Below, one piece after another: positions 4,964 through 49,693 of a DNA stretch of 64,000 bases; the stretch's first letter is position 1, and every line of letters begins with the position of its first letter. The notes below the pieces were generated by a model. The model had not been told where the DNA came from. It saw only the letters and a list, made by a program, of their open reading frames with translations, and did no database searches. Origin of the DNA: Cyanobium sp. ATX 6F1. GTDB taxonomy: Bacteria > Cyanobacteriota > Cyanobacteriia > PCC-6307 > Cyanobiaceae. Position numbers and translations under genes: made by a program. The DNA lies in the NCBI RefSeq assembly GCF_024346315.1, contig NZ_JAGQCS010000001.1, positions 372,001-436,000 of the forward strand. The letters run 5' to 3'.

Positions 4964-6214
4964 GTGAAAATAAAAAGGCTAGAAATTGAAAACTTCCGCT
5001 GCAAGGACAAGGCCACTCTTAAGCTTGGCTCACGTCTTACTCTACTTCTCGGCGAGAATGGGTCTGGTAAAACAACATTCCTTGATGCGATAGCGATCGC
5101 ATTAGGTGCCATCATTTCCTATTTACCCAAGGCTAAAGGGAGAAGCTTCCAGAAGCGTGGAGAGATTCGTCAAATTGGAGGGAGGACACTCAAATACGCG
5201 CGTATTGCTGTTGAAAGTATAGAGGGTATTTCTTGGGATTGCGTCGAGAAAGATCCGAAGTCAAGAGTCAAGATACCTGAGATTGGCAAGAGACAGCTGA
5301 AGGAATATCTTGACCAACAAATTCTCGAGCCACTCGCCAATGAAGATGATTTTGTTCTTCCAATCTTCGCTTTCTACGGGGTCAGCAGGGCCTTGCTTGA
5401 TATTCCAGAAAGGCGTCGTGGTTTTGACTTAGAGTCCGATCGAATTTTTGATGCCCTGGATCAAGCCCTGACATCTGGATCTAATTTCAGATCTGCTTTT
5501 ATATGGTATTTCAACAAAGAGATGGAAGAGTTGAGGCTACGCAATGAGATACGTAACTTTGACATTACGCTTCCACAGCTAAGGGCTGTACGTAAATGCT
5601 TAACGACACTTTTTCCAACTCTTACGAATCCTCGTTTTTCCGTGAAACCTCCCCTTCGTCTCATAGTCACTGAGAATAGAGAGGATCTAGAACTTTCACA
5701 ATTGAGCGATGGCTATAAAACCATGATCGGTGTAGCTATTGACCTGTCACGTCGCATGGCAGCAGGCAATCCTGACATGGATAACCCTTTGGAATCGCCC
5801 GCAATCGTAATGATTGATGAGGTGGATCTACATCTCCACCCAGCCTGGCAACAGAGGATTGTTTCGGATTTGCTCAAATGCTTTCCCAATACTCAATTTA
5901 TCGTAACGACTCATAGCCCGATTATTGTTGAAGGGATTAATAATCTCTTGAAAAGATATGCCATTGACAAACTGCTTCCAGCCTTCTTGGACGATGACTC
6001 GCTGATTAATATTAGGGCCCTGCACCCGCTCAATCCAGCGGAAACGGCAGTCTATCAGGTTACGCAATACGATCAAGTAGAGCTTATGGACATGGAAGAA
6101 GGCCTAACTGCTGACAGCTTAATTGAGAACTTTAATCAAGTCTCACTCACCTTTGAACACATGCGTGAGCTCGAGTGGAGATTGCAGAATGAACATCAAG
6201 AAGAAAATGGCTAG
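4964..6214 (+). CDS. AAA family ATPase (AAA_21/PtuA-like), inserted in BREX
   Basis: This is a 416-residue SMC/ABC-like ATPase of the class used by two-gene defence systems such as Septu, PARIS and retron effectors. The Walker A motif (GENGSGKT) is at residues 30-37. A signature-like LSDGYKTM precedes the Walker B region MIDEVDLHLHP near residue 285, and a TTHSP switch motif follows near 318. The start is GTG at 4964, since translation from there gives the usual N-terminal beta strand directly before Walker A. DNA is AT-rich, unlike brxC and pglZ. The downstream gene starts three bases after the stop, so the two probably act together, with the ATPase sensing or gating the nuclease. The exact subfamily is not certain. 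Confidence 0.85.
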   Translation: MKIKRLEIENFRCKDKATLKLGSRLTLLLGENGSGKTTFLDAIAIALGAIISYLPKAKGRSFQKRGEIRQIGGRTLKYARIAVESIEGISWDCVEKDPKSRVKIPEIGKRQLKEYLDQQILEPLANEDDFVLPIFAFYGVSRALLDIPERRRGFDLESDRIFDALDQALTSGSNFRSAFIWYFNKEMEELRLRNEIRNFDITLPQLRAVRKCLTTLFPTLTNPRFSVKPPLRLIVTENREDLELSQLSDGYKTMIGVAIDLSRRMAAGNPDMDNPLESPAIVMIDEVDLHLHPAWQQRIVSDLLKCFPNTQFIVTTHSPIIVEGINNLLKRYAIDKLLPAFLDDDSLINIRALHPLNPAETAVYQVTQYDQVELMDMEEGLTADSLIENFNQVSLTFEHMRELEWRLQNEHQEENG

Positions 6215-6217
6215 GAC

Positions 6218-6742
6218 ATGGCAGGAACCCCTCGTTTAGACCTTATTCCAGCCAGTCTGGTTCATTGTATTTGTTTGGCCAACAAGAATCCCTGTGATCT
6301 CTGCTGCGGTAAGATTTGTTTTCTAGATCAGGGGATACGTGTTACTATAAGGCCAAAAAAAGGAGAAATTGCCGCTGCCTTGGCGCTTGATGGATGTGTC
6401 TTTACGGATTACCAAAAAAAATGTGATGGACTTTTCGTCTTATTTAGATCTGGCCGCGTCGACATTATACTTGTTGAACTGAAGGCTAGTCATGTTGTTG
6501 ACGCATTTGAGCAGATCTCGCATGTTATGCAGAGTAGGAAGGAGTATCGCGATATAGTGTCGCACTTGACATCTTTAGTGGCAAATCCAAGGCAGATTGT
6601 GCAGAGGTCTTTCATTGTTACGACGGGATTTCTCAATCCACAAGTACGGCAGAAGTGGGAGAAGGCTTGCGGCGTTCTGCCCAGGGTGATTACTGTTGAA
6701 AAAACAGCTTCGTCCGCGCCCGATCTTCGAAATGAGCTATAA
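6218..6742 (+). CDS. Small PD-(D/E)XK-like nuclease with Cys cluster, partner of the ATPase
   Basis: The 174-residue protein starts 3 bases after the ATPase stop. It has a Cys cluster C26-x2-C29-C30-x3-C34 that may bind metal. A PD-(D/E)XK-like core follows: D70 in KCDG, then a hydrophobic strand ending in E87-L-K89, and a helix with Q99. That layout (Asp, beta strand, ExK, helix with Gln) is the nuclease signature; the activity is inferred. It is much shorter than the TOPRIM/DUF4435 partner AriB of PARIS and lacks the HNH of PtuB, so I do not match it to a described effector. DNA is AT-rich. The likely role is the toxic effector of the pair. Confidence 0.65.
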   Translation: MAGTPRLDLIPASLVHCICLANKNPCDLCCGKICFLDQGIRVTIRPKKGEIAAALALDGCVFTDYQKKCDGLFVLFRSGRVDIILVELKASHVVDAFEQISHVMQSRKEYRDIVSHLTSLVANPRQIVQRSFIVTTGFLNPQVRQKWEKACGVLPRVITVEKTASSAPDLRNEL

Positions 6743-12310: not shown

Positions 12311-13363
12311 TCAGTCGTTCTGAGTGGCCACCATCCATACCCGCTTGAGTGGAAGAGCCAGGCGGATCTCTTCCGGCAGCCTCTCGTAGTGCTCAAAGAG
12401 TTTCTCAAGCAGATCCTTGCGGCTCCAGAGCCGGACCCGGAAGAAATCCCGTGCCAGCTCTTTTTGAACATTGGGCTTGAAACCACCCCAGCTCACGAAG
12501 AGGCAGGTCTCGGCGCCGAATTTCTGCCCGGCGCCGATCAGCTTGTCCACCGTTGGCCGATCCGCTGGCTCGGATCCTGACTTCACCTCAACGCAAATCT
12601 TGGGCTTCCCGAAGCCCAACTCACCACCGCCAGCCAGGATGTCGGCACCTCCGTCAGCTCCCTCCGGGCTGCGGTAGGTGGTGTATCCCTCGGCCCGCAG
12701 GATCGCCTCCACAAGTTCGGTGAGGCCATGCCCCTTGAAGCGGGCCTCGATCAGCCGCTCCACTTGATCGCCGGCCAGCTCCTCCAGGTTGACGTTGATC
12801 GGGGCGCTGACGTCGCTGATAGTTTCACCCTGACCTGGCTGCTGCGGTGTGGCCACGCTCGCGCCAGCGCTCTCCGGCTTCCATTTGTTCGCAGCCATCG
12901 CCCGCACCCGTGCTTCCGCGTCGTTCCGCTGGATGCGACAGATGGTGAGGAACGCCCCGAATGAATAAAGAATGTCTTGCGGGAAGGCGCTGCGGGGGAT
13001 CAGGCCGCTGAACCAGTTGACGCTGCGCCAGTGGAAGTAGGGATCCGGGCCTCCCTGCTCGAAGTGATAGCCACTGGTGATCTCTCCGAAGTAGAGGCCC
13101 GACTGGAGCTTGGAGGGCATCACAACCCAGTCTCCCTGTGCCATGTCGCGCCCAAAGGCCCACACCTGCGCAGACCAGTTGATCAGCGCCTTGGCCTTCT
13201 CCTCTTGGTAGCGCTGCTCCATTGCATGGATCAGGGCCTGCCGGTCAGCCAGGGCAGCCAGATCCACATTCAGAGCATCCCAGGCCAAGTACACGCGACC
13301 CTCGTCGAGAAACTTCTGCTCCTGCTCGCCGTGGGAGCCGGCGCGGATCAGCCAAAGGGTCAT
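12311..13363 (-). CDS. Mrr-type restriction endonuclease-like protein
   Basis: This 350-residue protein has a C-terminal Mrr_cat-like PD-(D/E)XK nuclease domain (about residues 195-310): a helix ending LVEAILRAEGY, GADGGADIL with the catalytic Asp, then a strand with E-V-K (CVEVKSG). The N-terminal half (WLIRAGSHGEQEQ, later GDWVVMPS and YFGEI) resembles modified-base or nucleotide sensing domains fused to such nucleases, possibly a type IV-like enzyme that cuts modified DNA. Its ATG overlaps the stop of the upstream TPR gene (ATGA), so both are translated together. It converges with brxL. Confidence 0.82.
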   Translation of the reverse strand: MTLWLIRAGSHGEQEQKFLDEGRVYLAWDALNVDLAALADRQALIHAMEQRYQEEKAKALINWSAQVWAFGRDMAQGDWVVMPSKLQSGLYFGEITSGYHFEQGGPDPYFHWRSVNWFSGLIPRSAFPQDILYSFGAFLTICRIQRNDAEARVRAMAANKWKPESAGASVATPQQPGQGETISDVSAPINVNLEELAGDQVERLIEARFKGHGLTELVEAILRAEGYTTYRSPEGADGGADILAGGGELGFGKPKICVEVKSGSEPADRPTVDKLIGAGQKFGAETCLFVSWGGFKPNVQKELARDFFRVRLWSRKDLLEKLFEHYERLPEEIRLALPLKRVWMVATQND

Positions 13364-35883: not shown

Positions 35884-35937
35884 GCCAGTCTTCTGATCAT
35901 CCACTGCGAGTTTTTCAGATGACTGGCTTTTTGTTTT
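35884..35937 (+). terminator. Strong rho-independent terminator after the Cys4 peptide
   Basis: The stem GCCAGTC / GACTGGC (35884-35890, 35921-35927) is extended inward by TCTGA / TCAGA, and followed by TTTTTGTTTT. It overlaps the 3' end of the convergent merR-type gene. Confidence 0.75.
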
Positions 35938-36331
35938 CAGTGCAACGATTCAGCTCGGCGAGAATACCGCAGGTCTCCCCCTGATCCGGCTGCCGGCAGA
36001 ACCCTCTGAGCTGCCGCAGCTGATCCTGGAGTTGATGCAATTCATCCACGCGGGCATCGACCTCGGCGATCTTCTCGTCCAGCAGGACATTCACCGTCAG
36101 ACAGCTTCCGGTCGGTGTGTCGAGCGCCCCGATGAGGACGCGGACCTCCTCCAGGCTCATGTCAAGGCCGCGGCAGTAGCGGATGAAACGCAGCTGCTCC
36201 ACATGCCGCGGCGAATAGAGGCGGTAGTTGCTATCCGTGCGCTGTGGCACCGGCAGCAAGTGCTCCCGTTCGTAATAGCGGATGGTTTCGATCTTCACCC
36301 CGGTGGACCGTGCCAACTCGCCGATCTGCAT
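35915..36331 (-). CDS. MerR-family metal regulator, CadR/PbrR-like
   Basis: A 138-residue regulator starting at the ATG at 36331. The winged helix has MQIGELARSTGVKIETIRYYE and RTDSNYRLYS, followed by GLDMSLEEVRVLI. Three cysteines at 77, 112 and 121 (GSCL, FCRQPDQGETCGI) match the metal-binding Cys pattern of CadR/PbrR-type Cd/Pb sensors. It sits between two plus-strand promoters with MerR-type dyads, so it probably activates the Cys4 peptide, the VKOR fusion and perhaps the P-type ATPase. Confidence 0.9.
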   Translation of the reverse strand: MQIGELARSTGVKIETIRYYEREHLLPVPQRTDSNYRLYSPRHVEQLRFIRYCRGLDMSLEEVRVLIGALDTPTGSCLTVNVLLDEKIAEVDARVDELHQLQDQLRQLRGFCRQPDQGETCGILAELNRCTENKKPVI

Positions 36332-36382
36332 CGATCCTCCCTCCCCGGTAGGTGGCAACCCCTTCTCGAGCACATTAGGTCC

Positions 36383-36413
36383 TTGACCCTGGAGCCACTT
36401 CAGGCTTTTCAAT
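36383..36413 (+). promoter_or_regulatory. MerR-type promoter with 19-base spacer before the VKOR gene
   Basis: TTGACC (36383-36388) and TTCAAT (36408-36413) are 19 bases apart. CCTGGAG-CCA-CTTCAGG (36388-36404) forms a dyad with one mismatch. The long spacer is the hallmark of promoters remodelled by MerR proteins. It points away from the merR gene. Confidence 0.65.
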
Positions 36414-37362
36414 GGCGGCATCTCCAACCTTCTCTCAGCCTGTGAGCAGTGCTACGCGAACCAAACCTCTCTCCCGCCGGGCCGGCCAGGAGCAAGGCCG
36501 GCCCTGGGTGCGGCTCACCATGGCCGTGCTCGCCACGATCGGCATGATCGACACTGGCTCGATCACCGCCAAGCGCTGGGGTTGGATCGGCAGCCTGTCC
36601 TGTCCGGGCGGCAGCGATGGCTGCGACAAGGTGCTCGGCAGCGCCTGGGGCACGCTGCTGGGCCAGCCGCTTTCTCTCTTTGGATTTTTTGCCTACGCCA
36701 CGGTGCTCCTGCTGGCCCTGATGCCGTTGCTGCGAGGAGGTCTGCGGTCCCCTGGATCGGAGGGCAATCGGTGGGCTCTGTTCCTCACCTGCAGCGGCAT
36801 GGCCGTCTTCAGCTTGGTGCTGATGGGGCTCCTGGTGTTCGAGATCAAGGCCTTCTGCACCTTCTGTGTGGTGTCAGCCGCCCTTAGCCTCGCGCTGTTC
36901 CTGTTGAGCCTTGTTGGAGGTCTCTGGATCGACCGCAGCCAAGTGATCTTTCGCGGAATGATGACGGCCTTTCTTGTCGCTCTGCTGGGGCTGGGCTGGG
37001 CGGCCTCGGCGGACCAGTCTGTCGCTCAAAGCGGGCGGGTGGCTCCAGCTGTCATCAGCGCCAGCTCGCAAGCCAAGATTGCGCTGGCGGAGCATCTGAG
37101 CAGCAGTGGTGCCCGGGTGTTCACGGCGTACTGGTGCCCCCACTGCCATGACCAGAAGGAGGCCTTCGGCAAGGAAGCCGCCGCCAAGCTCCAGGTGATC
37201 GAATGTGCCGAAGACGGCGTCAACAGCCAGGCCGCGCTCTGCAAGCAGCAGGGGGTTCAGGGCTATCCCAGCTGGCAGATCAAGGGCGTTGTGGATTCAG
37301 GCGTCAAGCCGCTGAATACTCTCGCTGATCTCAGTGGCTACACCGGTTCCCGCGACTTCTGA
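36412..37362 (+). CDS. VKOR-family thiol oxidase fused to thioredoxin-like domain
   Basis: A 316-residue membrane protein. The VKOR part has four to five helices, with the loop Cys pair around SCPGGSDGC and the active-site C-T-F-C near residue 150. After a linker, a C-terminal thioredoxin-like domain carries YWCPHCHDQ (CxxC near residue 243). Such cyanobacterial fusions oxidise thiols in lumen or periplasmic proteins. The start is ambiguous: the ATG at 36412 overlaps the -10 of the MerR-type promoter, so GTG 36442 or ATG 36520 may be used. Confidence 0.88.
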   Translation: MAASPTFSQPVSSATRTKPLSRRAGQEQGRPWVRLTMAVLATIGMIDTGSITAKRWGWIGSLSCPGGSDGCDKVLGSAWGTLLGQPLSLFGFFAYATVLLLALMPLLRGGLRSPGSEGNRWALFLTCSGMAVFSLVLMGLLVFEIKAFCTFCVVSAALSLALFLLSLVGGLWIDRSQVIFRGMMTAFLVALLGLGWAASADQSVAQSGRVAPAVISASSQAKIALAEHLSSSGARVFTAYWCPHCHDQKEAFGKEAAAKLQVIECAEDGVNSQAALCKQQGVQGYPSWQIKGVVDSGVKPLNTLADLSGYTGSRDF

Positions 37363-41076: not shown

Positions 41077-41153
41077 GCGGGTGTGGCCTTGTACGTGGTC
41101 GGGGGCGGGGTGGTTGATGGCGAGTTGGTCACTGGGGGATCAAGCTTAATCGC

Positions 41154-41182
41154 TTGACACCTGCAATGCAAGTGTGCATAAT
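41154..41182 (+). promoter_or_regulatory. Sigma70 promoter with MerR-type dyad, apparently leaderless
   Basis: TTGACA (41154-41159) and CATAAT (41177-41182) are 17 bases apart. The spacer holds the dyad ACACCTGC-AAT-GCAAGTGT (41157-41175), one mismatch. Transcription would begin about 7 bases after the -10, at the ATG (41189). Confidence 0.75.
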
Positions 41183-41188
41183 GAAGCG

Positions 41189-41878
41189 ATGGTGAAGGTC
41201 TCCACTCCAGCTGACGCCCTCTACGGCCTCGAGGAACTCCTCCTCGTTGCCGGCAAGCTGCTGGGAGAGGTGATCTCATCTCGCACCGTGCGTCTGTACG
41301 CCACCCAGGGGTTGATCGATCGCCCCGGCAAGGAGGGCCGCAGTGCGGTCTATTCCCACCGCCACCTCCTGCAATTGGTGCTGGTGCGTGCCCTGGCCCG
41401 GCGCGGTCTCAGTCTTTCGGCCATTGCTCCCCTCTGCGTTCTGGCCGACGCCGATCTGGAGCAACAGCTGGAGCTGCTCGATGGGGTGGGGGCGGCGGCC
41501 ACCGTTCCTTCCCCGCCTGCTTCCCGTGCCGCCCTCGACTACCTCCAGGATCTGCAGTCCTCAAAGGAATCCACCCCAACCACCGACGACTTCCCTGCCC
41601 ACCTGTTGAGCAAAACCCATTCGCTCAGTCCCGTTCTCGGGATGCTCAGCGAACCCCTCTCCACCCAGGCCCGTTCGGAACGTTCTCCATCTGGCTCCCG
41701 ATTTGGGGGCAGCACTCGGGAGGCCTCCAGCCGCTGGCTGCGCTTCACCCTCGCCCCCGGGATCGAAGTTCACGTCCGCGAATCCGTTTCCCTTCCTCCT
41801 GCTGGTTCCCGCCGTCAGCAGTGGCTCAAGCGGCTACTGGATCGGCTCAACGAACTGATCGACGACCCCTTCAGCTGA
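41189..41878 (+). CDS. MerR-like HTH regulator of the VWA/phosphatase operon
   Basis: A 229-residue protein. The N-terminal winged HTH of MerR type shows ISSRTVRLYATQGLIDRPGK and RSAVYSHRHLLQLVLVRALA (about residues 31-72). A Ser/Pro-rich linker follows, then a C-terminal domain (about residues 175-228, LRFTLAPGIEVHVRESV) unlike usual metal sensors; no Cys cluster is present. The start is the ATG at 41189, where the predicted mRNA begins. A dyad between -35 and -10 suggests self-control. It is followed after 36 bases by a VWA gene. Confidence 0.82.
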   Translation: MVKVSTPADALYGLEELLLVAGKLLGEVISSRTVRLYATQGLIDRPGKEGRSAVYSHRHLLQLVLVRALARRGLSLSAIAPLCVLADADLEQQLELLDGVGAAATVPSPPASRAALDYLQDLQSSKESTPTTDDFPAHLLSKTHSLSPVLGMLSEPLSTQARSERSPSGSRFGGSTREASSRWLRFTLAPGIEVHVRESVSLPPAGSRRQQWLKRLLDRLNELIDDPFS

Positions 41879-41914
41879 ATCCCTTTTTTTCCAAGCACCA
41901 CCGCCTAACCAGCC

Positions 41915-43171
41915 ATGACCCAACCCACCCTGCGCTTCCGGCCCCTGCGGCCGGCGGTGGCTTCTGATCGCCCGTCACGCCTTGATCTGCTGCTCACGAT
42001 CACACCACCAGCCTTGAAGGCTGAGCCCCAACGTCAGCAGCGACCGCCGCTGAACCTGGCTCTGGTGATCGACCGCTCCGGCTCGATGAGCGGCACCAAG
42101 CTCAGCTATGCGCGCAAGGCGGCACGCTTCCTGGCCGGGGAACTCACCAACCGTGATCGCCTCGCCATCGTCAGCTTCGACGACGAGGTGAAGGTGGTCG
42201 TGCCCTCCACTCCCGTTATCGATCCCCAGCCCTTCATCGACGCGATCAACACGATCCACAGCGGCGGCTGCACGGACCTCTTTGATGGCTGGCTGGCTGG
42301 AGCCACCCAGGTGGCTGAACACCTCGATCCCACCCAGATGAACCGGGTGCTGCTGCTCTCCGATGGCCAGGCCAATGAGGGCCTCACCGACCACGAACAG
42401 ATCGCCACCAAGGTGGCAGGCCTCACCCAGCGGGGCATCAGCACCAGTGCCTTTGGCCTGGGCGCGGACTTCGATGAAGACCTGATGGGGGCCATGGCCG
42501 CTGCAGGCGATGGCACCTTGGCCCACATCGAAAGCCCCAGCCAGCTGGCGGATCTCTACGCCTCCGAGCTTCAGGGCCTGGCCACCACCTTCGGGCGTCG
42601 GGTGAGCCTCGGCCTACGGGGCAAGCATGGCGCCGAGGTGGTCGATCTGCTCAACGACCTCAAGCCCACCGGTGCAGGCAACCACCAGCTCCCCAACCTG
42701 CGCGCCGGCCAGGAGCTCAATGTGGGTGTGCAGCTCCAACTGCCCGCCTGGATCCCCAATCAGGAGATCCTCAGCGTGCGGCTGGCCTGGGATGCCCCCG
42801 GTGGCAGCGAACGCCAGACCCTGATCGAGCATCTGACGTTGCCGGTGATGGAAAGCGAGGAGATCAAGCAGCTTGACCCCGATGAGGCGGTGGCTGAACA
42901 ACTGGCGCTGCTGCGGGCCAACCGGGAGCGCAGACATGTCATCGCCGAACTTGATCGGGGGGATATCAGCAGCGCCAGCCTCAACCTGAGCCAGCTGTAT
43001 GAGGAGCTGTCGGCCATGCCCGCCAGCCCAAAGCTCTCGCGGGAACTCGACCTGCTGAACGAAAAGCTGGCCATGCTCAAGAGCGACCCGAACCGCAGCC
43101 GCAAGAACTTGAAGCGGGAGTCGCAGCGCTCCAGCCTGAACGTCTGGGATAGCGCCGATGACCAGAACTGA
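41915..43171 (+). CDS. VWA-domain protein
   Basis: A 418-residue soluble protein with a von Willebrand A domain (about residues 45-220). The MIDAS motif D-R-S-G-S in ALVIDRSGSMSG is near residue 52-56, with later LLLSDGQANEG and STSAFGLGADFDEDL. A beta-rich middle domain and a charged helical C-terminus (EQLALLRANRERRHVIAEL) follow. VWA proteins bind partners through a metal ion. Its last 14 bases overlap the phosphatase gene, so both are made together. Confidence 0.88.
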   Translation: MTQPTLRFRPLRPAVASDRPSRLDLLLTITPPALKAEPQRQQRPPLNLALVIDRSGSMSGTKLSYARKAARFLAGELTNRDRLAIVSFDDEVKVVVPSTPVIDPQPFIDAINTIHSGGCTDLFDGWLAGATQVAEHLDPTQMNRVLLLSDGQANEGLTDHEQIATKVAGLTQRGISTSAFGLGADFDEDLMGAMAAAGDGTLAHIESPSQLADLYASELQGLATTFGRRVSLGLRGKHGAEVVDLLNDLKPTGAGNHQLPNLRAGQELNVGVQLQLPAWIPNQEILSVRLAWDAPGGSERQTLIEHLTLPVMESEEIKQLDPDEAVAEQLALLRANRERRHVIAELDRGDISSASLNLSQLYEELSAMPASPKLSRELDLLNEKLAMLKSDPNRSRKNLKRESQRSSLNVWDSADDQN

Positions 43172-43811
43172 TGTGGTGGCCATCGGGGATGTGCACGGCT
43201 GCGCCTCCCTGCTGGAGCAGGAACTATGGCCGCACCTAGATACGGGGGCGGAGCTGATCTTCCTGGGGGACCTGATCGATCGCTCCCCTGAACCGGAGGG
43301 CGACCGGAAGGTGCTGGAGCAGGTGTGGCTGCTGCAGGAGAACCCCGCCGCCTTCGGCCTGGCGGCGGTGACGGTGCTGCGGGGCAACCACGAGCAGATG
43401 CTGCTGAAGGCGCTGGCGCCAAGAGCGCAGGACCAGGACGTGGATCTGTGGCTGTGCAACGGCGGCAACCCCGACCTCCTGCCCCTGGCCCGCGAGCGCC
43501 GGGACTGGTTCGAGCAGCTGCCGTTCACGGCCATCCGCGGCGACCATTTGTTCGTCCATGCCGGCGTGCGCCCCGGAATCCGCCTAGAGCACCAGGCCAC
43601 AGACGATCTGATCTGGATCCGGAGGCCGTTTCTAACCAAGCCCCACGGGTTGGCCTACACCGTGGTGCATGGACACACGTTTCGGCATGACTACAAGGTG
43701 ACGCGGCTGCCGCATCGGATTGGGATCGACACCGGGGCGTATCTGAGTGGAACGCTGACGATCATGCGGTTTGAACTTCAATCCGAGCCAACTGGGGAGG
43801 CGGACGCATGA
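43158..43811 (+). CDS. PPP-family metallophosphatase
   Basis: A 217-residue calcineurin-like phosphatase of the bacterial PPP type (lambda-phosphatase/PrpA-like). The motifs are in order: GDVHG (residues 10-14), GDLIDR (about 37-42), GNHEQ (about 77-81), HAGVRPG (about 136) and a late VVHGHT. These hold two metal ions for Ser/Thr phosphate or Ap4A hydrolysis. It is embedded between the VWA gene (14-base overlap) and an unknown gene (ATGA overlap), so its substrate may be within this system. Confidence 0.9.
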   Translation: MTRTDVVAIGDVHGCASLLEQELWPHLDTGAELIFLGDLIDRSPEPEGDRKVLEQVWLLQENPAAFGLAAVTVLRGNHEQMLLKALAPRAQDQDVDLWLCNGGNPDLLPLARERRDWFEQLPFTAIRGDHLFVHAGVRPGIRLEHQATDDLIWIRRPFLTKPHGLAYTVVHGHTFRHDYKVTRLPHRIGIDTGAYLSGTLTIMRFELQSEPTGEADA

Positions 43812-44170
43812 GGCAACAGGAGATCTGCTGTGAGGCACGGCTGGCCTATCTGGACTATTTCTCCAGGACTGTGGCTGCCTCGATCTGCAGCCCACATCAC
43901 TACCTGATTTTCGACGAGGCGCTCTCGCCTCTTGTGCAGGCGCTGACCTTAAAGGAGATTCTGACCCTGCATCCAACCGATGCCTGCTGTCGGATTAAGG
44001 TGTGGTGTTGCGAGGATGTGGCTGATTTCACGGCTATGAAACAACGCGCCTGGAGCGAGGACGGCCGGAGGATCAAGCCCATGACCGCCATGCTTTACGT
44101 ACCACAGTTAGATGTGACAGGGTCAAGGCCTGCTGGGATGATCGATGAGATTTTCGGTCTTACTAATTAG
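43808..44170 (+). CDS. Unknown protein, last gene of the VWA/phosphatase operon
   Basis: A 120-residue protein whose ATG overlaps the phosphatase stop (ATGA). It has seven Cys, including CCRIKVWCC, and a mixed alpha/beta look. No family is recognised. A 7-base hairpin (CGGTCTT / AAGACCG, 44155-44178) covers its stop codon but lacks a T-run. Coupled translation implies a shared function with the phosphatase and VWA protein. Confidence 0.6.
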   Translation: MRQQEICCEARLAYLDYFSRTVAASICSPHHYLIFDEALSPLVQALTLKEILTLHPTDACCRIKVWCCEDVADFTAMKQRAWSEDGRRIKPMTAMLYVPQLDVTGSRPAGMIDEIFGLTN

Positions 44171-44341: not shown

Positions 44342-45364
44342 ATGCCAGTTCTTCAACAATCTCAATCAGTTCCAGATCTACAAGCAGTCAACGAGATTCG
44401 CTACATCAAGCTAGGAGACAAAGGCAGGCAAGAGATAGCATGTATCCAAAATGACTTTTGTTACATTGGATTTTGCTCATCAGATCCAGATTGTTTTCAG
44501 CTCATGATGGAGGCAAAGAGCGCTGGCGCCTCCAATAAGGATAAGGCCTGGAAACTCGTATGGGACTTCCATTTCTCAGAAGCGAAGGGTACAGACAATA
44601 AACGTAAACAGAATGCAACATCAGCGACAAACCAGTTGCGTTACTTCTTTGAATCAGGAGAGGAAACGCTCTGGATAACCTTCCATGCGCGAAAGCTCTA
44701 CTTTGCAATTCTAGACCCCTCTATTCCGCCAAGACGCGCAGAGGATGGTAGCCATCGCTCAGTTCTCGGCCAATGGCGCTGCACAGATATCGAAGGAAAT
44801 GAATTCCTGGAAGAGAAGCTTTCGGGTCGAATAACCCAAACAAAGTCCTATAGAGGAACCTCATGTAAAATTGCAAATGATGCGAAAGAATATCTTCTTC
44901 GGAGAATTCTCTGCCAACTGCACCCTTATCAAAAAACGGTTGTTTTGGCAATGGGGCAATTAAGCCGCGGCATCACAGCAGCAATACGCTCACTCACGCC
45001 TGGGGACTTTGAGCTTCTTGTGGAGCTTATTTTCTCGCAAACCCTCCGAAGAATAAGCACAACTGGCAAAGTGCAGGACTTTGTAGATCTTGTGTTCGAG
45101 AATCCACTAGACGAAAGCAAGGTGAGTGTTCAGGTAAAATCAAGAACAACTCCCGCTGAATTCCATGAATACGCAACGTCTCCCGGCCTAGAAACTTATC
45201 AGTTCTTCTACTTCGTATATCATTCATCAGAATGTCTTCTGGAAGACTTCACCATCCCTTCTGGTGTTGACGGCACTAAAATCAAGATTCTCGATATCTC
45301 TAAAATTGCCTCCATGGCCATTGACGTGGGTCTCATCTCATGGGTAATGGATAAAGCAGGCTGA
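44342..45364 (+). CDS. PD-(D/E)XK-like restriction endonuclease, AT-rich island gene
   Basis: A 340-residue protein with an unrecognised N-terminal two-thirds and a C-terminal Mrr-like nuclease region (about residues 215-290). That region has LTPGDFELLVELIFSQTLRR, a VQDFVDLVFE strand with Asp, then SVQVKSRTT, where Q-x-K takes the E-x-K place, a known Mrr variation. A helix YATSPGLETY follows. The DNA is strikingly AT-rich next to GC-rich neighbours, a sign of transfer. It lies 31 bases before the large nuclease-helicase gene on the same strand. Confidence 0.65.
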   Translation: MPVLQQSQSVPDLQAVNEIRYIKLGDKGRQEIACIQNDFCYIGFCSSDPDCFQLMMEAKSAGASNKDKAWKLVWDFHFSEAKGTDNKRKQNATSATNQLRYFFESGEETLWITFHARKLYFAILDPSIPPRRAEDGSHRSVLGQWRCTDIEGNEFLEEKLSGRITQTKSYRGTSCKIANDAKEYLLRRILCQLHPYQKTVVLAMGQLSRGITAAIRSLTPGDFELLVELIFSQTLRRISTTGKVQDFVDLVFENPLDESKVSVQVKSRTTPAEFHEYATSPGLETYQFFYFVYHSSECLLEDFTIPSGVDGTKIKILDISKIASMAIDVGLISWVMDKAG

Positions 45365-45395
45365 GCGAGCCACGTCTCACATTTATGACCTCTCG

Positions 45396-48300
45396 ATGAC
45401 CTCTCGCCCCACCACCCCTAGCCAGCTCGCCCTCTTCAGCCGTAGCCCACGGATCGGTGCCTGGTGGGAGGAGCTCAAATCCAGGGGTCTTTTCACGGGC
45501 AAGCAACCACCTCCCTCCTCCCTTGATGAGCAACTGTTCGCCGATGGTCTGCGCCTTGAGCAGGTGTTGCTCAACCGGTTGGAAGCCGAGGGCTATCGCA
45601 TCGCCCGCCTGGCCGGCAAGCAGAGCGAGGCTGATTACGTCGCCACCCGCGAGGCGATGGCAGCAGGGTTCGACTTCATCCATCAGGCCTCACTGAACAA
45701 CGGAGAGATCCGCGGCTCGGCCGATGTGCTGCGCAGGATTCCCCAGCCCTCGGCCCTGGGTGACTGGAGCTACATCCCGATCGAATGCAAGCTGGCCAGT
45801 AAGCCACGCACCACCTTTCTGGTCCAGGCTTGTGCCTATTGCGAACTGCTCACCCCATTGCTGGGGCACCGGCCCGATCGCTTCGAGTTGTTTCTCGGCG
45901 GTGGCCGCTTCCAGACCTATGACACTGACCGCTTCTGGGCCTGGTACCAACAGCTCCGCAACCGCTACCGCGATTTCTGTGCTTCCTTCGATTCCGCCTC
46001 GCCGCCGGAGGATGAACCCGGTGATCACGGCAGCTGGAGCGCCTTCATCGAGGAGCGGCTGATCGCCGAGCGGGATCTTGTGTTGGTGGCGAACATGCGC
46101 CAGAACCAGCGCCTCAAGCTCAAGGCCGCCGGCATCCACACAATCGAGCAGCTGGCCGAACTGCCTCCCGCCGCCAGCATCGCTGGCCTGGCGGCCGAGG
46201 TCCTGTTCGAGTTACGTCAGCAGGCCCAGCTGCAACTCACACCCCATGGGGCCGATGGCAAGCCCGCGTTCCTGGTGCGCCCCCTGCAGCAGGGCAAGGG
46301 CTTAGCCGCCCTCCCCGCCGCCGATGCCGGCGACATCTGGTTCGACATGGAGGGACTCCAGGATGCCGTTGCCGCCAAGAAGCTCGAATACCTTTTTGGG
46401 GCCTGCTACCGGGAGGCCCCGGCTGAGCCGGCAGCCTTCATCGCCTGGTGGGGCCATCGCCCCCTGGAAGAGAAGCGGGCCTTCGAGGGGTTTGTGGATT
46501 GGGTGGAGGAACGAAGACGCCGTCATCCAGGCCTGCACGTCTACCACTACGCCAGCTATGAAAAAGCGGCGATGCGACGCCTCTCCCAGCAACACTCCAC
46601 CCGAGAAGCGGTGATCGATGACTGGTTGCGCAGTGATCTGCTCTGTGACCTGCTGCCGGTCGTCACCCGCTCAATCGTGCTCGGTGAAGGCAGCTACTCG
46701 ATCAAGAAAGTGGAGGGGCTCTACATGGGCCCCCGTGGCGCCGATGTCACCAATGCCGGTGATTCCGTCGTCGCGTACCTGCACTGGCAATCCTCCGGTG
46801 AGCCTCCCCTGCCGGGCGCAGCTCCCGAAGGCAGCCCCAGGCTTCAGGCCATCGAGGACTACAACCGCGACGACTGCGTCTCCACGGTGCTGCTGCATGA
46901 CTGGCTGCTGGTTCTGCGCCGCGCCCAGGGCCTGCCCGATCAACCGCTTGAACAGGCTGAGGAGGAACGCCCTGATGCGGAACCCTGGCCCCTGGAAGCC
47001 CTCAGCGCCCGGTTGATCGCCGAGTTGCCTGAGCAGCTCCAGAGCGATCCCGCCGCCAATGCTCCAGAAGCCGACCTGCTCGACCAGGAACGACTGGGTC
47101 CCCGGGGCCTGAGCTGGCGGGTGCAACGGCTACTGGCCCAGCTGCTGCCGTTCCATCACCGCGAGGCCAAGGTGGCCTGGTGGGCCTACTTCGATCGCAG
47201 GGGTAAGGCCCTGCAGAGCCCGGAGGAACTCGACGCCGATGGCGAGGCGATCAACGGAGTCGTATGGCAAGGCTCCGAGAGTGTGCCGAGTGCGCGCACC
47301 GGCGCCGATCTGCACACCTTCGCCTTCGATCCGAGTCAGACCCTCAAACTCCATGTCGCCCATGGAGATGGGTCCATCAAGCTGGAGATCCCCGAGACCG
47401 GCCAGAAGCTCCAGGCCGTGGTGATCGACGGCGAACAGGGCACCCTCACCCTCAAGTACCCCTGGAGCACGAGAGACAAGCGGCAGGCCGCCGGCCAGGC
47501 GGTGGAACTTCCCAAGGGTCCCATCCCTCTGATCAAGGTGCCCGAGGACATCAGCGAGCTTCTACGCGACAGCCTGCTGGCCCAGGCCGAGAGCTGGGTG
47601 GATGGTGGCAAGCCCATCCCTGCCGCCATCGTTCACCTGCTGGAGCGCCGTGCCATTGAGCCACTGATCTCGCTCAATCATGCCCTCGCAGCCGATCCGA
47701 GCGCCTTGCCGGCCCATCTGGCGGCGTTTCTTGCCTCCCACAGCAATCTGACCCTGGCGCTCCAGGGCCCCCCCGGCACGGGCAAAACCACCGTCACCGC
47801 TGAGGTCATTGCCGAGTTGGTGGAGCGCGGTCTGCGGGTGGCGATCAGCTCGAACAGCCACGCCGCGATCAACAACCTGCTGCTCAAGGCCCACAGCACC
47901 TGCGCAGGCCGTGGCCTCAGCCAGCAGGTGGTGAAATGCAGCACCGCTAAAGACGACAAAGGTCTGGTCGGCCAGCCCGTGGCGCTCTGCAAACCCGATG
48001 CCCTCGCCGGATCGATGGCCGTGGTGGGCGGCACGGCCTGGATGTTCGCTCGCCCCGTGATGGAGGAGGCCTTCGACTGGCTGGTGGTGGATGAGGCGGG
48101 GCAGATGTCCCTGGCCAATCTGCTGGTGATGGCTCGCTGCGCCCGAGGAATCCTGCTGGTGGGCGACCAGCAGCAACTGGCCCAGCCCAGCCAGGCCGAT
48201 CACCCGGGAGAAAGCGGCCGCTCCTGCCTGGAGTATCTGATGCAGGACAAAGCGGTGGTGCCGGCAGATCGGGGCGTGTTCCTGGCCACCAGCTGGCGGA

Positions 48301-48941
48301 TGGAACCCTCGCTCACCTCGATGGTTTCGGCGCTCTTCTACAACGGCCGGCTCAAGGCCAGCCCCGCCAATGCGATCAACCGGATCGAGTGGCGGGAGCC
48401 CTTCACCGGCAGCGATGGTGGAGTCGTCCCCAGCCAAGGGTTGGTGTTTGAGGCGGTTGAGCACACCGGCTGCAGCGTCAGCTCAGAAGAAGAAATCGAG
48501 CGCATCGCTCGGCTGGTGGAATCCCTGCTGGGCTCCAGCTACCGCCATGCCAGCAGCGGCGCTGAACGCAGTGGGGTTCTAACCCCGATCGACATCCTGG
48601 TGACAGCTCCCTACAACGTTCAGGTGAACCGGCTGCAGCAAAGGCTGGGCAACCGTGCCCGGGTGGGAACGGTGGACCGATTCCAGGGCCAGGAAGCCCC
48701 CGTGGCCATCCACTCCCTCACCGCCAGTGACGGAGATGCCGCCCCCCGAGGCCTGGGTTTCCTGTTGCAGCCCAACCGGCTCAACGTGGCCATCAGCCGT
48801 GCCCGTTGCCTCTCGATCGTTGTCGGCTCACCCGGCCTCGTAACGGGTATCGCCAACACGGTGGAGGAGGCGGAGCAGATCAATCGGTTGTGCCGCTTGG
48901 TCCAAGCTTCCATGGAAGATGATCGCCGAGATATCAGCTGA
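45396..48941 (+). CDS. TM0106-type RecB-like nuclease / DEDDh exonuclease / SF1 helicase
   Basis: A three-part protein of 1181 residues. N-terminal RecB/Cas4-like nuclease: GSADVL with Asp, then IPIECKLASK (E-x-K) near residue 130. Middle RNase H-like exonuclease: DIWFDMEG (near 315), later HYASYEKAAM and EDYNRDDC (near 490). C-terminal SF1 (Upf1/AAA_12-like) helicase: Walker A GPPGTGKTT near 793, VVDEAGQMS, LVGDQQQLAQ, GTVDRFQGQE and LNVAISRAR. The family is common near defence genes and is thought to process DNA or RNA ends. Codons are host-like. Confidence 0.9.
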   Translation: MTSRPTTPSQLALFSRSPRIGAWWEELKSRGLFTGKQPPPSSLDEQLFADGLRLEQVLLNRLEAEGYRIARLAGKQSEADYVATREAMAAGFDFIHQASLNNGEIRGSADVLRRIPQPSALGDWSYIPIECKLASKPRTTFLVQACAYCELLTPLLGHRPDRFELFLGGGRFQTYDTDRFWAWYQQLRNRYRDFCASFDSASPPEDEPGDHGSWSAFIEERLIAERDLVLVANMRQNQRLKLKAAGIHTIEQLAELPPAASIAGLAAEVLFELRQQAQLQLTPHGADGKPAFLVRPLQQGKGLAALPAADAGDIWFDMEGLQDAVAAKKLEYLFGACYREAPAEPAAFIAWWGHRPLEEKRAFEGFVDWVEERRRRHPGLHVYHYASYEKAAMRRLSQQHSTREAVIDDWLRSDLLCDLLPVVTRSIVLGEGSYSIKKVEGLYMGPRGADVTNAGDSVVAYLHWQSSGEPPLPGAAPEGSPRLQAIEDYNRDDCVSTVLLHDWLLVLRRAQGLPDQPLEQAEEERPDAEPWPLEALSARLIAELPEQLQSDPAANAPEADLLDQERLGPRGLSWRVQRLLAQLLPFHHREAKVAWWAYFDRRGKALQSPEELDADGEAINGVVWQGSESVPSARTGADLHTFAFDPSQTLKLHVAHGDGSIKLEIPETGQKLQAVVIDGEQGTLTLKYPWSTRDKRQAAGQAVELPKGPIPLIKVPEDISELLRDSLLAQAESWVDGGKPIPAAIVHLLERRAIEPLISLNHALAADPSALPAHLAAFLASHSNLTLALQGPPGTGKTTVTAEVIAELVERGLRVAISSNSHAAINNLLLKAHSTCAGRGLSQQVVKCSTAKDDKGLVGQPVALCKPDALAGSMAVVGGTAWMFARPVMEEAFDWLVVDEAGQMSLANLLVMARCARGILLVGDQQQLAQPSQADHPGESGRSCLEYLMQDKAVVPADRGVFLATSWRMEPSLTSMVSALFYNGRLKASPANAINRIEWREPFTGSDGGVVPSQGLVFEAVEHTGCSVSSEEEIERIARLVESLLGSSYRHASSGAERSGVLTPIDILVTAPYNVQVNRLQQRLGNRARVGTVDRFQGQEAPVAIHSLTASDGDAAPRGLGFLLQPNRLNVAISRARCLSIVVGSPGLVTGIANTVEEAEQINRLCRLVQASMEDDRRDIS

Positions 48942-48958
48942 ACTGAATTGGATACCCT

Positions 48959-49375
48959 ATGTCGTTCAACGTCAAGTCTTGGTTGGTAGATGCGGTAGTC
49001 GATTCTGTACTCGCCAAGCCATCTGGCTCATGCCACGGAATTACTGGTTTCTGGCTTGCATCGCTGAACCGCGTACGCAATGAGCGCATCCTGAGAATTG
49101 GCACGCTCAATGGGCATCACTTCTTGCTTGCTGCTGAGATTGACACGGATGCGACGCACGTCATGGACCCGAAGCGTCTTGATGAGTACGTCGAGCACGA
49201 GATGCTCAAGCACTCGAAAGACAAGGACTCCTTTTCCATACAAGCTGCTAGCGCCCACGTACAAGAATGCGTCGATAAAGGGCGTATCGTCGTCGCCTTC
49301 CGGAATGCTCGTGCATTTACCGGAGAGTTCAAGAGCAATGGGCGAAACTCCGTTTGGTATGAGGAAGATCAGTGA
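48959..49375 (+). CDS. Hypothetical protein (138 aa), foreign-looking
   Basis: A 138-residue soluble protein starting 17 bases after the helicase stop (ATG 48959). Recognisable blocks are SWLVDAVVDSVLAKPSG, GFWLASLNRVRNERILRIG and IVVAFRNARAF, but no family is evident. Base and codon use differ from the helicase gene, which points to a separate origin. It could be a small immunity or accessory gene of the nuclease-helicase cluster. Confidence 0.55.
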   Translation: MSFNVKSWLVDAVVDSVLAKPSGSCHGITGFWLASLNRVRNERILRIGTLNGHHFLLAAEIDTDATHVMDPKRLDEYVEHEMLKHSKDKDSFSIQAASAHVQECVDKGRIVVAFRNARAFTGEFKSNGRNSVWYEEDQ

Positions 49376-49693
49376 CATTGAAACCCACCCCAATACTGTA
49401 AGCCTTGAGTTCACAGTGACCAAACTGGAGTTGTGTTCTAAGCCAGCCACAATGTCACACTGGAACTCAACGAACTAGGAATTGGCATGCCAACTGGGAA
49501 CGGTGCAGTGGAAGCATGTGCGCTTAACTTAAGAGCAATGGGTACAATATTGTCTCATTTAGGCTAAATAGCTAATCGGGTAACGATATTGAGACGACCA
49601 AGGACGGTAAAACCTTATATGTAGAATGCAAAGGTGGGTCGTCAAGAAGGACGGGCGATACTTTTAGCGGGAGGGATGGCATCGTCCCTCCGC
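49376..49693. other. Intergenic region with a 13-bp bulged hairpin
   Basis: No gene is seen. The 3' end contains an imperfect palindrome, 49405-49470: TTGAGTTC-a-CAGTG pairs with CACTG-GAACTCAA, leaving a single unpaired A. A 9-base inverted pair GTGACATTG (49372-49380) / CAATGTCAC (49450-49458) overlaps it. It may be a recombination or transcription-stop element. Confidence 0.5.

Follow-up and report, generated by a model that had tools for sequence, protein, structure and literature searches.

What kind of system is formed when a MerR-like regulator, a von Willebrand factor A (vWA) protein and a PPP-family phosphatase are encoded side by side? The question is raised by positions 41154–44170 of a 64,000-nucleotide (nt) stretch of Cyanobium sp. 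ATX 6F1 DNA (contig NZ_JAGQCS010000001.1, positions 372,001–436,000), referred to here as the window. An earlier note, made from the letters alone, described four tightly spaced genes under a leaderless promoter at this place, and the coordinates agree with it: a 36-nt gap separates the MerR and vWA genes, the vWA and PPP genes overlap by 14 nt, and the PPP gene and open reading frame 4 (ORF4) share an ATGA overlap. Judged from sequence comparison, the MerR-vWA pair is the conserved core of the system and the PPP phosphatase is a clade-restricted addition, while the MerR mRNA is very probably leaderless.

All four genes lie on the plus strand. The regulator (229 amino acids (aa), 41189–41878) has a MerR-type winged helix-turn-helix, as seen from its match to PF13411 (35.7 bits against a cut-off of 21.6) and from its best fold neighbours, which are MerR-type. 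The vWA protein (418 aa, 41915–43171) matches PF00092 (1.1e-15) and has an ArnB/Sec23-24-core architecture. The third protein (217 aa, 43158–43811) is a lambda/PrpA-type metallophosphatase of the PPP family, with the Metallophos fold (PF00149, 1.3e-11) and the catalytic motifs GDVHG, GDLID, RGNHE, FVHAG and HGHT found by reading; the lambda-type phosphatase 1g5b (4.9e-8) is its nearest solved structure. ORF4 (120 aa, 43808–44170) has no match in Pfam, NCBIfam or PADLOC.

Distribution of the MerR-vWA pair

A pattern-based scan with a vWA alignment, which is biased to close relatives, gave 72 named vWA loci: 65 cyanobacterial, five from Planctomycetota, one from Meiothermus and one from Gemmatimonas. 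Of the 61 cyanobacterial loci whose upstream sequence reaches 700 nt or more, 56 have a MerR gene of this family directly upstream of the vWA gene (all except L099, L105, L115, L144 and L147); the Meiothermus locus has one as well, and the Planctomycetota and Gemmatimonas loci have no such gene. Some genomes are counted twice: Morenito 9A2 (L091, L113), CZS25K (L094, L107) and LEGE 07298 (L124, L125). Some family-genome regions overlap named loci; the counts of named loci and those of PPP relatives given below are not mutually independent. In the phylum-wide Cyanobacteriota sample, vWA matches with E ≤1e-38 were present in 38 of 386 genomes.

The pair is also present in Deinococcota, where 21 of 111 genomes gave 22 vWA matches. 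Twenty regions were taken from these (one match left out is the Meiothermus locus L156, already counted), and MerR precedes vWA in 18 of them; L234 has no MerR, and L243 ends at a contig edge. Among plasmids, 20 records match vWA, including five Synechocystis plasmids that are largely mutual copies, and MerR was present in all 16 regions examined. An IMG/VR contig classed as viral (L195) carries a MerR-vWA pair too, its vWA being 43% identical over part of its length. No description of the pair was found in the open-licence literature, where absence is weak evidence.

The expectation that the gene set co-occurs in other genomes thus holds for MerR, vWA and PPP, and fails for ORF4. Long relatives of ORF4 stand behind PPP only in L095, L106 and L265, and partial ones in L100, L101 and L103. 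As a candidate core member ORF4 was rejected: in 99 relatives only its own match is credible, the second (E 0.009) having an internal stop. It is best described as an occasional rider gene behind PPP and not as the fixed fourth gene.

Promoter, start codon and putative operator

The promoter TTGACA-N17-CATAAT is present as the note had claimed (−35 at 41154–41159, a 17-nt spacer and −10 at 41177–41182, plus strand). It is the sole match to 11 of 12 consensus positions in the 4.5 kb scanned, and shuffles of the same 4.5 kb gave 0.8 ± 1.0 sites scoring at least 9/12. More telling is its distance to the start codon. In 58 of 58 loci (the window and 57 named loci, all with a readable MerR start, and including L108 with its degenerate TCGACG) the −35 element lies 29 or 30 nt from the MerR ATG; grouped at 70% MerR identity, these loci form 29 clusters. 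For the other open reading frame starts of the same loci, counted with TTGACA/G/T only, this was seen in 2 of 1514 cases.

The best −10 spacer is 17 nt in 40 loci and 18 nt in 18, and the −10 element lies 6 nt before the ATG in 55 of the 58 (7 nt in two, 5 nt in one) with either spacer. Of four possible spacings the one with the best −10 was taken, ties being assigned to 17, a procedure that favours regularity; the total of 29 or 30 nt is independent of this pick. Since the position of the ATG follows that of the −10 element, the pattern fits transcription starting on the A of the ATG, and it lends support to the suggestion that the transcript begins on the regulator's own start codon; a long leader, which would have spoken against it, is not what the comparison points to. 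The same spacing is found in 15 of 15 testable Deinococcota MerR genes, two of them with GTG starts (the other three of the 18 are truncated by contig ends). Among plasmid loci, 11 of 16 have a spacing of 28 or 29 nt, and the other five, on divergent Deinococcus plasmids, have no TTGACA at that distance. The open reading frame caller favours GTG at 41174 as the MerR start, but we prefer the ATG at 41189 because of the comparative spacing. Start codons that follow the −10 element across two phyla would make this a rare comparative case for leaderless expression.

The earlier note had also placed a dyad in the promoter spacer and proposed that MerR controls itself. Both ideas gain from the comparison. 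The putative operator ACACCTGCAATGCAAGTGT (41157–41175, plus strand) overlaps the −35 hexamer and the spacer, and 8 of its 9 positions pair, which 19 of 5000 mononucleotide shuffles of 41151–41188 equalled; in the homologous dyad of L150 all nine positions pair. Alone the dyad of the window is modest, and it becomes convincing as a likely operator through its conservation. Its centre lies 12 nt from the first −35 base in the 24 loci that make up the picocyanobacterial set, and eight of nine arm pairs are kept in 67–100% of these loci, with pair 7/17 kept in only 25%. The other 34 loci have a weaker dyad centred at 9.5. Both types overlap the −35, which suits repression. With at most two mismatches the operator occurs at one place in the window's genome, the MerR promoter, and this points to local autorepression. 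MerR therefore probably represses its own promoter locally. In a related genome (G001, L071 ~12490–12511, minus strand) a second operator-promoter with the right −10/ATG spacing has no recognisable gene behind it, and is perhaps a relic of another copy.

The model of the MerR protein (predicted local distance difference test score (pLDDT) 77) has a confident winged helix-turn-helix, a dimer helix, a disordered linker (residues 132–178) and a C-terminal β-hairpin/helix (183–225) that is conserved; HiNmlR (5d90) is its best Foldseek match. Metal-responsive MerR activators have conserved metal-binding Cys residues and a long spacer of 19–20 nt. No Cys is found in the invariant or near-invariant columns of 39 MerR sequences, so the regulator does lack metal ligands in this sense, and CueR and ZntR models score far under their cut-offs. 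The missing conserved Cys and the 17- or 18-nt spacer in all 58 loci speak against a regulator of the CueR/ZntR type. No case could be made for a ligand pocket, as the model is partly disordered beyond the helix-turn-helix. A second MerR-type regulator of ordinary appearance is present in the list of open reading frames 5 kb upstream (35915–36427, minus strand).

Partner enzymes and structure of the vWA protein

PPP genes behind vWA are restricted to a picocyanobacterial clade (100/100 support, 27 rows). Of the 25 named picocyanobacterial loci with 800 nt of downstream sequence, 13 have PPP, two have remnants and 10 have none, and the overlap with vWA is exactly 14 nt in 12 of the 13. Of the 23 close relatives of PPP found in 21 of 400 family genomes, 17 stand behind vWA, 16 of them directly and one (L265) after ~490 nt, and another lies behind a decayed vWA gene (G038, L074 ~5350–6553). 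An origin of PPP from phages was considered and dismissed, as the best phage matches are only ~36% identical.

Elsewhere the vWA protein has other partners. A Macro domain is fused to it in 12 of the 61 cyanobacterial loci, in another clade than the one with PPP, and in 7 of the 20 Deinococcota regions. Deinococcus ficus has a microbial PARG behind MerR-vWA (L213 6348–7187; PF10021, 6.6e-38), and D. deserti has a PTP-SAK-type phosphatase behind vWA (L214 6532–7026; PF22784, 2.2e-10). A fixed third partner was also sought where PPP and Macro are both missing, but in eleven such loci the genes behind vWA either matched nothing or belonged to unrelated families (ADH, trypsin/PDZ, PTPS, DUF2834, DUF697 and alkyl sulfatase).

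Synechocystis 6803, a model open to genetic work, has a fused homologue: its plasmid pSYSA (L211 5360–7767) carries MerR and vWA-Macro genes between HNH-nuclease genes and the CRISPR-associated csx2. The pSYSA protein is, in its vWA half, a homologue of the vWA protein here (40.9% identity over 97%), it lies behind a MerR gene with the usual promoter spacing (29 nt), and unlike the operon of the window it has Macro instead of PPP. We take its locus tag to be slr7060. A review (PMC10989914) notes that in slr7060 a YmdB-type Macro domain is joined to a vWA domain of the YfbK type.

The vWA protein models as a full-length ArnB/Sec23-24-core fold. Its model (pLDDT 82) consists of a split β-sandwich, the vWA domain and a helical bundle, the three parts that make up ArnB, and aligns with the ArnA/ArnB complex 8s05 over 375 residues (Z 29.2, 4.4 Å, 16% identity), with the Catenulispora structure 4fx5 (Z 27.7) and with the ArnB paralogue 5a8j (Z 24.4). 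A tail of the type RKxLxxESxRSSxNVW is common to nearly all of 26 picocyanobacterial sequences compared. The literature on ArnB, as far as the cited portions go, describes the same combination, with a regulatory helical bundle, as a blueprint in many lineages (PMC12852372), and reports that the PPP-type PP2A of Sulfolobus binds and dephosphorylates ArnB, whereupon the complex dissociates (PMC7472852). With this operon, a bacterial vWA protein of the ArnB/Sec23-24-core fold is joined by a PPP phosphatase of its own.

Known systems and possible function

The earlier note could match the operon to no described system. This holds in that no whole match was found, but there are resemblances to the ARG-centred systems (PMC9503650) and to ArnAB/PP2A (PMC7472852, PMC12852372). 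The role proposed for ARG-centred host systems, itself a prediction, is to undo viral ADP-ribosylation (PMC9503650, section 3.8). The architecture of our operon is like theirs, with a one-component repressor, a vWA gene and a phosphatase (in their case including calcineurin-like or rhodanese-phosphatase types), with Macro as an optional extra and with variable nucleases and helicases, and the phosphatase and vWA genes are coupled here too, through the PPP/vWA overlap. Nevertheless, the operon is not a member: a Pfam scan of the four genes and their neighbours finds no ARG domain, the regulator is a MerR in which only MerR_1 was found instead of the Nudix or WYL sensor seen in >42% of those systems (PMC9503650), and the PPP form has no ADP-ribose enzyme. 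From Sulfolobus ArnA-ArnB/PP2A, which shares the three-domain vWA fold and the PPP phosphatase partner, the operon differs in encoding the phosphatase itself, in its bacterial MerR control and in its low sequence identity (~16%). No FHA-domain or FHA/zinc-finger partner such as ArnA is found in the operon, the rest of the genome not having been searched for FHA.

Less complete likenesses are seen elsewhere. TerY-P triads combine a vWA protein, a PP2C phosphatase and a kinase in one operon, whereas the phosphatase is of the PPP type here and no kinase is encoded with it. Ternary conflict systems of the vWA-MoxR/VMAP type likewise join vWA to varied effectors, Macro among them, but unlike these, as they are presented in the relevant part of PMC7159879, the operon has no MoxR AAA+ ATPase. 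CvkR is a leaderless MerR-type repressor of the type V-K CRISPR-associated transposon in cyanobacteria (PMC9938897), and from what the cited text gives it shares with our regulator the palindromic site and the tie to mobile or defence genes; its motif AnnACATnATGTnnT and its targets are different, and the fold match is weak (7xn2, Foldseek E 0.029).

The best reading we can offer, and a tentative one, is that of a vWA scaffold under autorepression whose modification eraser can be exchanged. MerR made from the leaderless mRNA would bind the dyad over its own −35 and keep the operon low, a step for which the conservation argues strongly. A signal would release MerR; it may be sensed by the C-terminal hairpin/helix, and the vWA protein may be what brings it. 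vWA and PPP would then be made jointly through translational coupling, as the 14-nt overlap suggests. The vWA protein may serve, in a MIDAS-dependent way, as scaffold or chaperone for a client that carries a covalent modification, or it may itself be the modified switch. The partner enzyme would strip off the modification, phosphate in the case of PPP here and ADP-ribose adducts in the case of a fused Macro or PARG in relatives. As for the setting, we can only speculate that it may be recovery from an attack or stress that modifies proteins or RNA, for instance by phage enzymes. This reading is favoured by the presence of the MerR-vWA pair in two phyla, the fixed spacing, the unique operator and the 14-nt overlap, and further by the 17 of 23 PPP genes behind vWA, the swap of partners and the PP2A-ArnB precedent, in so far as PMC7472852 covers it. 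Gene order, its conservation and the promoter spacing are direct observations. A joint role of vWA and PPP we infer; the erasing of a covalent mark as the common theme is speculative and drawn by analogy to the ARG-centred systems (PMC9503650). In a broader form of the reading, which we hold to be doubtful, MerR-vWA and its exchangeable erasers (a fused Macro domain, PARG, PTP or PPP) make up a hitherto undescribed system of two phyla, transcribed without a leader from a promoter that it represses itself; it would free proteins or RNA of the host from ADP-ribose or phosphate marks set by phages or plasmids. If true, the picocyanobacterial PPP form would show that phosphatases and ADP-ribose hydrolases are interchangeable on the same vWA scaffold. 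The operon offers a candidate, open to testing, for the means by which bacteria reverse hostile modification of their proteins or RNA.

Several findings weigh against the eraser reading. Of 61 cyanobacterial loci in which the sequence continues downstream, 34 have neither PPP nor Macro, and an eraser is thus not obligatory. Four of the 23 PPP relatives, one of them decayed, stand without vWA or MerR, and another lies behind a decayed MerR gene (G782, L271 3677–4899); together with the decayed vWA gene in G038 the latter indicates that PPP can outlive its partners. PARG and PTP were each seen in a single locus, at distances of 91 and 275 nt behind vWA, and may lie there by chance. One genome (G032) keeps MerR, has lost the leaderless ATG and has no vWA match. 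A hidden Macro partner was looked for in the genome of the window, which has no Macro gene, and the operon holds no ADP-ribosyltransferase. The partner kinase for which the earlier note had proposed a search is likewise missing from the operon, the genome having two Pkinase genes elsewhere.

These two kinase genes count in favour of the main rival, a phosphoswitch of the ArnB-PP2A type. Here a Hanks kinase encoded elsewhere would phosphorylate the helical bundle or the Ser-rich tail of the vWA protein, PPP would be its dedicated phosphatase, and the phosphorylation state would set MerR or another target, with no ADP-ribose chemistry in this lineage. The full-length fold matches to 8s05 and 5a8j, the action of PP2A on ArnB (as given in the cited part of PMC7472852), the PPP/vWA overlap and the common tail all speak for it. 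The tail, however, is equally conserved with and without PPP, the operon has no FHA partner, the authors of the ArnB work regard the blueprint as widespread and mostly not tied to multi-phosphorylation (PMC12852372, in the portion cited), and the Macro fusions of sister clades are left unexplained; we consider a phosphoswitch somewhat doubtful. MerR and vWA could instead be a core stress or plasmid-maintenance pair of regulator and co-regulator, with PPP, Macro, PARG, PTP and ORF4 as independent passengers behind a well-regulated promoter. The pair does stand alone in most loci and is common on plasmids, its partners differ, and solo PPP genes occur, yet passengers would rarely reach an exact 14-nt overlap in 12 of 13 loci or a Macro fusion in two phyla, and this explanation appears unlikely. 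Very unlikely, finally, is an anti-phage system that extends into the downstream genes, with PPP-vWA as sensor and a nuclease as effector. A cassette (44342–48941) does follow on the same strand, its nuclease slot varies and its helicase matches MkoA models in part, but 172 nt separate it from ORF4, four of the six genomes with the helicase are without the triad, and several loci have the triad without the helicase. With variable nucleases and a helicase adjoining, carriage on plasmids and the CRISPR neighbourhood in Synechocystis, a signalling or conflict system, as the note had suspected, is plausible.

Genes downstream of the operon

Downstream of ORF4, and probably a separate unit, lies a gene for a weakly Mrr_cat-like protein (340 aa, 44342–45364, plus strand), whose match to PF04471 (E 0.011) is under the curated cut-off. 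A relative fills the same slot in L091 and L093, while GmrSD is found there in L095 and PDDEXK_4 in L106. The slot is followed by a TM0106-type RecB-like nuclease/IGHMBP2-type helicase (1181 aa, 45396–48941, plus strand; TIGR03491, 2.3e-59), for which MkoA is the best PADLOC match over part of the length. This helicase is patchy: 6 of the 60 relatives have it. Two of the six are the genome of the window and G001; of the other four, three have no vWA match at E 1e-12, and G069 has remote matches only.

Compared with L091, the window is nearly identical over 41950–43650 and 45400–49400. DNA identity is 92–99% for vWA-PPP and 89–100% for the helicase, but ~41–82% for MerR and 53–70% for the nuclease slot, which indicates a mosaic. 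The contents of 44342–48941 vary among close relatives, like those of a defence hot spot.

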